A stretch of DNA of 64,000 nucleotides from Christensenellaceae bacterium Phil10 (GTDB lineage: Bacteria; Bacillota; Clostridia; Christensenellales; CAG-917). This document shows, piece by piece, positions 6,715-31,925 of the stretch. The notes beneath the pieces were generated by a model. The model saw only the letters and a list, made by a program, of their open reading frames with translations. It was not told the origin of the DNA and made no database searches. A program made the position numbers and the translations under genes. Within the stretch, counting starts at the first letter, position 1. Each line of letters starts with the position of its first letter. The stretch covers positions 1 through 64,000 of the forward strand of contig MSGY01000015.1 in the NCBI GenBank assembly GCA_001940895.1, given 5' to 3'.

Positions 6715-7081
6715 GGGGATGTTTTAGGATTCGACATTTTTGTTCGGACGATAAGAAGCACGTCGCAGGTCCGGCTGCGTTAAAGACGGAAAATTAAAAT
6801 TAAACGCAAAAAATAACGAAAAAGTGAACGCTCCCGCGTTCGCATTCGCCGCTTAATTAACAGCGACACGCCGACCCTGTGCGCCTACTCCGCAGGCAAT
6901 CGGCGTCATACAGGGTAGGGTACGATTCTGCCCACGGCCGTAAGCAGAACCGTATAACGGCCTCTTCAAAGTTGCAGACTGTCGGCGAACTGCAACGAGA
7001 GAACTCAATCACCGACTAAACGTGTAGAAGGTATCGGGCGGGTAAGGATGAACCGGGGTTCAAATCCCCGCATCTCCACCA
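6715..7081 (+). ncRNA. ssrA: Transfer-messenger RNA (tmRNA)
   Basis: A 367-nt tmRNA that rescues stalled ribosomes with SmpB. The 5' end GGGGATG pairs with CATCTCC before the encoded ACCA at the 3' end, forming the alanine-type acceptor stem. The T-arm is CCGGGG-TTCAAAT-CCCCG. The tag frame appears to resume at GAC (6785-6787) after GCGTTAAA and runs 23 codons to TAA at 6854-6856. The peptide begins DGKLKLNAK and ends NAPAFAFAA, with the expected protease-recognition end. Pseudoknot-rich sequence follows (about 6860-6990). The tag is longer than the usual 8-15 residues. The gene ends in a strong terminator. Confidence 0.95.
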
Positions 7082-7131
7082 AAAAAACAAGCCGTGAAAA
7101 CGGCTTGTTTTTTATTGTCCTCGGGGATTTT
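7066..7131 (+). repeat. Direct repeat copy 1: tmRNA 3' end plus terminator
   Basis: This stretch runs from the T-stem of ssrA through CCA and the terminator to CGGGGATTTT. It recurs 176 bp downstream at 7242-7306 with about three differences and one 1-nt deletion in the T-run. The similarity begins in the T-loop (CAAA) and stops sharply after GGGGATTTT. Confidence 0.9.
7082..7114 (+). terminator. ssrA terminator
   Basis: Stem CAAGCCGT / ACGGCTTG with a GAAA loop, extended by flanking A and T runs. It starts directly after the encoded CCA. Confidence 0.9.
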
Positions 7132-7241
7132 ACGCAACGAGGTTGCGGCGCGGCAATGCCGCGGGAACCCCGGTTATCACCGGGCTGACGCTCACGGGAC
7201 GGAAACGTCCGTTCGCTAATACGCTCGTACCTCGCTACAAA
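7132..7241 (+). mobile_element. GC-rich structured non-coding module between the two tmRNA 3' ends
   Basis: About 110 bp with no plausible gene. It contains successive hairpins (GCAAC-GAG-GTTGC; GCGGC-AAT-GCCGC; CCCGG-N6-CCGGG; GGACG-GAAA-CGTCC), the decamer GCTGACGCTC at 7184-7193, TTCGCTA at 7212-7218 and TCGCTA just before the duplicated T-loop. The decamer and heptamer recur in the same orientation in the tRNA-Val repeats at 31.6-31.9 kb. Calling it an element is inference; no mobility gene is present. Confidence 0.5.
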
Positions 7242-7306
7242 CCCCGCATCTCCACCAAAAAGACAAGCCGTGAAAACGGCTTTTTTTTATTGTCCACGGG
7301 GATTTT
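7242..7306 (+). repeat. Direct repeat copy 2: partial tmRNA 3' end plus terminator
   Basis: Second copy of the ssrA 3' end: T-stem half, acceptor 3' strand, CCA (ending 7257) and a hairpin terminator. The 5' part of tmRNA is absent, so it is not a second gene. The layout (RNA gene, short insert, repeated 3' end) is what integration at an RNA gene leaves behind. Confidence 0.85.
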
Positions 7307-31522: not shown

Positions 31523-31546
31523 ACGCCGATTGCTCGGCGTTTTTTC
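31523..31546 (+). terminator. Terminator after the small helical protein gene
   Basis: Stem ACGCCGA / TCGGCGT, loop TTGC, then T6. Confidence 0.85.
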
Positions 31547-31561
31547 TTTGACGGAACTTGA

Positions 31562-31716
31562 AAAATAGCGAAGCGAGAAAGTAAAACTTTCGGAAGTGGA
31601 GCGTCAGCGCGCAGCGGTTCGGGGCGAAGCCCGGGCAACGGAGTTGCGCAAAGGCCGTAAGTACAAAAAAAGCAACCTTAAAAAGGTTGCGTTTTGGTGG
31701 ACGTTAACGGACTCGA
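31562..31716 (-). repeat. 155-bp repeat unit B downstream of tRNA-Val
   Basis: Outer copy of a tandem 155-bp unit. Read from the tRNA side it consists of the last 22 nt of tRNA-Val including CCA (31695-31716), a hairpin terminator (31664-31690) and a GC-rich core. The core contains GCAAC-TCC-GTTGC, GGGC-TTC-GCCC, the decamer GCTGACGCTC (31599-31608 on the minus strand) and TTCGCTA (31566-31572). Just outside, at 31548-31560, is a decayed third copy of the tRNA end. Confidence 0.9.
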
Positions 31717-31871
31717 GAAATAGCGAAGAGAGAAAGAGGAACTTTCGGAAGCGGAGCGTCAGCGCGCAGCGGTTCGGGGCGAAGCCCGTACAACGGAGTT
31801 GGACAGAGGCCGAAAGTACAAAAAAAACAACCTTAAAAAGGTTGCTTTTTGGTGGACGTTAACGGACTCGA
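31717..31871 (-). repeat. 155-bp repeat unit A, its tRNA end being part of tRNA-Val itself
   Basis: Inner copy of the tandem unit: tRNA-Val 3' end (31850-31871), terminator (31818-31846) and GC-rich core with GCTGACGCTC (31754-31763) and TTCGCTA (31721-31727). ACTTTCGG (31741-31748) and CCGAAAGT (31810-31817) can pair to close the core into one multi-hairpin structure. In unit B this long stem keeps all but one pair. Confidence 0.9.
31818..31846 (-). terminator. tRNA-Val terminator
   Basis: Minus strand: stem CAACCTT / AAGGTTG with a TTT loop and a T8 run, beginning a few bases after the encoded CCA. Unit B has a second one at 31664-31690. Confidence 0.85.
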
Positions 31872-31925
31872 ACCGCTGACTTTCTCCACGTCAAGAAGAC
31901 ACTCTACCAGCTGAGTTAAACGTCC
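31850..31925 (-). tRNA. tRNA-Val, anticodon GAC
   Basis: All arms close: acceptor GGACGTT / AACGTCC, D-stem ACTC / GAGT, anticodon stem TCTTC / GGAGA with loop TTGACGT (anticodon GAC, reading GUC and GUU), five-base variable loop, T-stem AGCGG / CCGTT with loop TTCGAGT, discriminator A and an encoded CCA. The 76-nt length includes the CCA. Its last 22 nt are repeated 155 bp downstream. Confidence 0.95.

Follow-up and report, generated by a model that had tools for sequence, protein, structure and literature searches.

Short non-coding units behind tRNA and tmRNA genes of Christensenellales bacteria carry arms that match the T-arm of the host gene

The window analyzed here, 64,000 nucleotides of contig MSGY01000015.1 from Christensenellaceae bacterium Phil10, contains a tmRNA gene and a tRNA-Val gene that are both followed by repeated, hairpin-rich DNA (Table 1). 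The initial annotation had described a duplication of the tmRNA 3' end, with its terminator and CGGGGATTTT, 176 bp downstream, and this duplication is real: the 50 nt at 7063-7112 are repeated at 7239-7288 with 94% identity and a spacing of 176, and the 24 nt at 7108-7131 are repeated at 7283-7306 with 96% identity. The repeated span runs from the T-loop C56 (7061 and 7238) to CCA (7081 and 7257), the terminator and CGGGGATTTT, and the distal 3' end lacks one T or else has three substitutions. A chance origin was ruled out by the identity and length of the copies together with the family data presented below. Between the repeats lie about 107 bp (7132-7237) of non-coding DNA, and its hairpin-rich character, also part of that description, was borne out by the DNA fold of 7113-7306, which reached -41.5 kcal/mol (z = -3.3), a value matched by 0 of 200 shuffles. 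The description was correct yet incomplete.

Both loci are built from a unit with the order terminator, R', hp1, hp2, L', L, hp4, R. At the tmRNA locus, R' is the reverse complement (CGGGGATTT) of the T-arm 3' strand AAATCCCCG, L' is the reverse complement (GAACCCCGGT) of the T-arm 5' strand ACCGGGGTTC, and a short loop separates L' from L. This locus holds one complete unit and the beginning of a second one, followed by unique DNA. The first unit behind tRNA-Val terminates in CGAGTCCGTTAACGTCCACCA, which equals C56-A76 of its host. Besides its terminator and hairpins, every unit includes a copy of the host C56-A76 as its last part; the host thus keeps a complete 3' end, with a second one downstream. 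The outer arms (R' and R) and the inner arms (L' and L) reconstitute the host T-arm to either side of the T-loop, and the generic hairpins bulge where the T-loop would be.

Table 1. Host genes and parts of the units in the window, with the basis of each assignment.
Feature	Position	Strand	Basis
tmRNA gene (ssrA), tag AKNNEKVNAPAFAFAA	6715..7081	+	ARAGORN; Rfam RF00023, 152.6 bits
tmRNA T-arm L	7050-7061	+	
tmRNA proximal C56-A76	7061-7081	+	
Terminator hairpin of the tmRNA unit	7082..7113	+	Inverted repeat
R' (CGGGGATTT), inverted copy of T-arm 3' strand	7122..7130	+	Sequence; R' host-specificity
Hairpin hp1	7133..7147	+	DNA fold
Hairpin hp2	7149..7163	+	DNA fold
L' (GAACCCCGGT), inverted copy of T-arm 5' strand	7165..7174	+	Sequence; host-specificity tests
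L (ACCGGG), direct copy of T-arm 5' strand	7179..7184	+	Sequence; host-specificity tests
hp4 region, family core CTGACGC...CGCTA	7185..7237	+	Alignment; R2 model match to unit
R, distal direct copy of tmRNA C56-A76, one T missing	7238..7257	+	Repeat; edge analysis
Second terminator and R', start of truncated second unit	7258..7306	+	Direct repeats
tRNA-Val(gac) gene	31850..31925	-	ARAGORN; Rfam
Complete unit behind tRNA-Val, L' = GAACCGCTG	31695..31849	-	Sequence; R1 and R2 matches
Tandem unit 2 behind tRNA-Val, degenerate at its distal 3' end	31543..31694	-	Sequence; R2; R1 at 31552-31669

The edges of the repeat were then defined by comparing host and distal copy. In 67 units, chosen by a distal 3' end within two bases of the host, so that the agreement at 57-76 partly follows from the choice, position 55 agreed in 4% and position 56 in 97%. 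Where different DNA came after the repeat (35 units), agreement ended at A76, and 21 of these 35 had no extra matching base. Because the agreement starts sharply at 56 and ends at A76, the repeat corresponds to C56-A76.

A search of 60 relatives with the window sequence, followed by reading of the loci, showed the same plan in other species behind tmRNA, tRNA-Ala, Arg, Val and Leu genes, several of them in tandem. A covariance model, R1, built on 15 modules from one related genus, gave about 120 matches in 21 of the 43 genomes of the family, where the host was tmRNA or one of at least 18 kinds of tRNA gene. A same-strand tRNA or tmRNA gene precedes 85 of the 122 distinct R1 matches; most of the others run into the end of a contig or overlap the gene, and a few, such as L173 and L181, are apparently true orphans. 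In the genome of the window, R1 detected the tRNA-Val locus and two further loci, behind tRNA-Val(tac) and tRNA-Arg(acg). The second model, R2, found five units there, one at a contig end; it was built with the window unit included, and the scores of the window units are therefore not independent. The two models combined place six units at five loci of this genome, which is 55% complete, and the module is thus multicopy. Over 297 genomes of the order, R2 matched 15 genomes of the family and one outside. Most units measure 131-205 bp, within an overall range of about 130-330 bp, and the second 3' end was identical over 20 nt in 56 of 84 units. Unit number, which the initial annotation had proposed to compare, varies across relatives, from one unit to tandem units, frequently identical to each other, and rearranged arrays.

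Other repeats were seen in the same setting. A second type of element, with the core AGCGTTAAGAAAA...TTTTTAGCG and close variants, follows the same R'...R plan with inverted and direct T-arm ends (L005, L031, L032, L181, L235, L260 and L282); its host genes, for tRNA or tmRNA, belong to this family and to other families of the order. Of 297 genomes, 15 contained the pattern AGCGTTAAGAAAA N6-30 TTTTTAGCG; the reversed pattern, used as a control, was absent from all those listed. Tandem units of 118 bp lie directly behind tRNA-Gln(ctg) in L279 (G033:C27), and tandem repeats of about 75 bp directly behind tRNA-Cys in L243 and L266 (G028:C91 and G033:C33).

The correspondence between arms and host was measured by position in 56 units with a CTG[CA]CGC-type core. 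L, taken as the five bases before the core, was found in positions 45-55 of its own host in 80% of cases, against 6% for other host families. The run matching the own host averaged 7.3 bases for L' and 6.6 bases for R', compared with 4.9 and 4.3 bases for other hosts, and 0 of 5000 host permutations reached the observed value for each of L, L' and R'. When L was read as an 8-nt window, one or more bases too long, the own host scored only 4.0 versus 3.7 of 8. Examples of matched arms are Ser(cga), with host CGTGAGTTC and element CGAACTCACG-TC-CCGTGA; Tyr, with host CGGTGGTTC and element CGAACCACCG-TT-CGGTG; and Leu(gag), with host ACATCCGGG and element CCCGGATG-GA-CATCCG. At L042, behind tRNA-Arg, L matches the host and L' does not, and this unit is perhaps an intermediate. 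Across hosts, hairpins hp1, hp2 and hp4 are homologous; they do not derive from the host, so something must carry them between genes, and from these shared hairpins alone we infer that the units probably dispersed between host genes. The hairpin sequences showed no strong grouping by host gene or by genome, and recent donor-recipient pairs therefore cannot be named. No fresh jump, with the arms of another host inside a new host, was caught among the units examined.

Next, we asked how the module folds. In the R1 alignment of 122 distinct sequences, which was fitted to the model and is hence biased towards structure, both-sided changes occurred in 26 of 29 pairs, 90% of cells paired, compared with 70% in shuffles and 33-40% in slid controls, and the covariation score was 0.359 against 0.124. 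Stems were then picked with a strand-neutral rule and their G.T and A.C mismatches counted, with the terminators, whose stems act as RNA, as the positive control. The terminator stems contained 18 G.T and 5 A.C mismatches (p = 0.01), and the module stems of the same units 10 and 8 (p = 0.81). Without the G.T excess of the terminators, the fold looks DNA-level; the mismatches to count are few, and the result points to a module that folds as DNA rather than RNA. These data bear on the proposal that read-through of the tRNA or tmRNA terminator yields a structured RNA from the module, which would regulate the host tRNA or mimic it. The strong conserved structure agrees with it, as do R' and L', which are antisense to the host T-arm. 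Nevertheless, a strong terminator precedes the module, the G.T excess of the terminators does not occur in the module stems, the module matched no known structured RNA family in Rfam, and it is missing from many related genes and genomes. We regard such an RNA as highly improbable.

Occupancy was compared among relatives and differs even between close species. In G028, G033 and G035, the DNA upstream of tmRNA is 88-96% identical, and the gene is followed by no unit in the first, one in the second and a rearranged array in the third. Occupancy also differs among the three genomes at Ile(gat), Arg(cct), Val(cac) and other genes, with contig ends limiting some of the comparisons. The initial annotation had proposed to look in relatives for an empty site. 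These comparisons, made at shared upstream flanks, give candidates for such a site, and no clean join of both flanks was recovered. L008 and L021 resemble an empty and a filled tmRNA site; their upstream flanks do not align and the downstream flank also occurs behind tRNA-Ala, so the pair counts as suggestive only. At the window tmRNA locus, a unit is also present in another genus (L030) with a shared upstream flank. Its hairpins differ from those of the window and its arms suit a different T-arm, which fits either repeated insertion or long co-evolution. It had been argued that a single-copy module conserved at the same place in all relatives, with a decaying second 3' end, would not be a mobile element. 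The units are not single-copy and their second ends are intact in the majority counted above, but the occupied locus in another genus stands on the other side. Nearly identical downstream sequence was also observed in L003 (G028, tmRNA) and L027 (G026, tRNA-Ala), and in L008 (G024, tmRNA) and L048/L054 (tRNA-Ala), as if larger pieces also move between tmRNA and tRNA-Ala genes.

We then searched for an enzyme. The element carries no integrase, as the initial annotation had stated, and the units are too short to encode one. Nearly all genomes have a match to a Xer-like tyrosine recombinase, read out as a protein of 355-361 aa in three of them (L142, L148 and L134). It is the sole tyrosine recombinase match in G011, G006, G007 and G008, where units or R2 matches are present; several near-complete genomes have no other match of this type, perhaps a sign of a single-enzyme Xer system. 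A phage-type integrase was rejected as the mobilizer since several carriers have only the Xer-like recombinase. Y1 transposases of the REP or IS200-IS605 kind are absent from the carriers G011, G006, G016, G026, G032 and G035, the DEDD recombinase of an IS110 bridge-RNA system was found in 0 of 13 genomes, and a reverse transcriptase does not fit as a general mobilizer, being missing from most or all of the carriers tested. The carrier G011 gave no serine recombinase match. No dedicated recombinase tied to the unit was found in the carrier genomes searched. Just past the end of the window (G000:C15:64394-64528), a tyrosine integrase match lies in an open frame of 118 aa.

Integrative islands do occur at these genes. 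G004 has an integrase remnant beside tmRNA, and in G033 a tyrosine integrase gene adjoins tRNA-Arg(cct) (L166 = G033:C10, L271 = G033:C5), while elsewhere in that genome there is a 3' half of tRNA-Arg(cct), cut near the anticodon loop, with a unit behind it (L166). It seems that an island entered this gene and displaced that unit. Such islands lend some plausibility to the idea that the units are scars or degenerate remnants of larger integrative elements in tRNA and tmRNA genes, which the initial annotation had offered as one possibility. This origin is very unlikely in view of the conserved, covarying hairpin fold in more than 100 copies and the standard size of the units. No gene cassette or other cargo gene was found between or within them, no other 3'-end copy that could be a distant partner appeared in the roughly 6-20 kb surveyed around the hosts, and three strict patterns searched against IMG/VR found no viral carrier.

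The main rival explanation needs no recombinase and no dedicated mobility. Replication slippage and hairpin template switching at tRNA genes would generate the zigzag L R, R' L', L R and keep the arms matched to the adjacent gene, and the generic hairpins would pass from locus to locus by homologous recombination. All arms derive from the adjacent gene, tandem units are often identical, the stems are near-perfect with few G.T or A.C intermediates, as if the arms correct each other, and no enzyme was found, all in agreement with template switching. The T55|C56 and A76 edges, however, are too regular for slippage, and the shared hp1, hp2 and hp4 are not host-derived. We consider this explanation possible but unlikely.

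Our best reading, to which we assign a probability of roughly one half, is that the unit is a small DNA element, non-coding and non-autonomous, that enters tRNA and tmRNA genes at the edge of the T-loop and acts as a folded recombination site resembling attC. In this reading its junction with the host is T55|C56, and its fold imitates the T-arm target. The minimal non-autonomous element suggested in the initial annotation is in this respect supported, not proved, by the multiple copies, the variable occupancy and the sharp edge in the T-loop. When single-stranded or extruded, the module would form a stem that mimics the double-stranded T-arm target; a recombinase acting in trans would join the folded module to the T-arm at T55|C56, much as folded attC sites are recombined by integron integrases, and tandem arrays could then expand or contract via recombination between repeated units. 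Under this reading and its main rival alike, the agreement of the inner arms with the host calls for one of two processes, selection for matching arms or copying of the host sequence, of which the second would be more novel. We tentatively suggest, as a rather doubtful extension, that the element is self-adapting, so that on entering a new gene it copies the T-arm of that gene into its inner and outer arms and leaves its hairpins unchanged. The source of the copy might then be the host gene or, as the repeat is exactly C56 to A76, even a 3' fragment of the mature tRNA.

Integron attC sites are folded, non-coding DNA in which the sequence varies and the structure is maintained. Their boxes, outer and inner, pair around an unpaired middle, and the sites occur in tandem arrays. 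The units resemble attC (e.g. PMC2727003) in folding with such paired boxes and in forming tandem arrays. Unlike attC, they have no gene cassettes or attI, hairpins fill the middle, and the GTTRRRY-type R-box core is absent by inspection, the arms being T-arm sequences (GTTCRANYC). An integron integrase is also unlikely in the carriers G011, G006, G007 and G008, where the only tyrosine recombinase match is Xer-like. With tRNA and tmRNA genomic islands (Islander, PMC4383910), they share a restored target gene and a displaced fragment at the far end; a direct repeat of the target 3' end lies at the far side of the unit and the gene is complete, as in an integrative element. The units differ from such islands in having no integrase or cargo, several copies per genome, conserved hairpins and internal arms matched to the host. 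Insertion in the T-loop with a 20-bp repeat is an established mode of integration, exemplified by the Dehalococcoides ssrA genomic islands with their serine integrase DsiB (PMC3146451). Those islands carry their own genes and an integrase and use only ssrA, whereas the units have no genes, measure about 130-330 bp, and occupy some 20 host genes, with inner arms that copy the T-arm of each. Like MITEs and REP-type repeats, the units are short, non-coding and multicopy, with inverted repeats and hairpins. Unlike MITEs, their ends copy the neighboring gene and are not the fixed terminal repeats of a transposase, and no parent was found; unlike both, they lie almost exclusively behind tRNA and tmRNA genes, and the Y1 transposases of REP-type repeats are missing from many carriers. 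No known family, whether integrative element, attC, MITE, REP, IS110 or Rfam RNA, fully fits when compared feature by feature. Searches of the literature outside subscription journals yielded no description of such elements. To our knowledge, and in the papers searched, no mobile element has ends matched individually to about 20 different host genes.

If the units are mobile, they would represent a new form of target recognition and, outside integrons, a counterpart of attC at the level of DNA. Should the self-adapting proposal hold, target matching would work by copied sequence and not by a fixed protein-DNA code. Even if immobile, they offer a natural system for sequence matching between a gene and the palindrome next to it across dozens of species. 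Mobility of the units would also help to explain the repeat-rich tRNA 3' ends, often found at contig ends, in these gut Clostridia.
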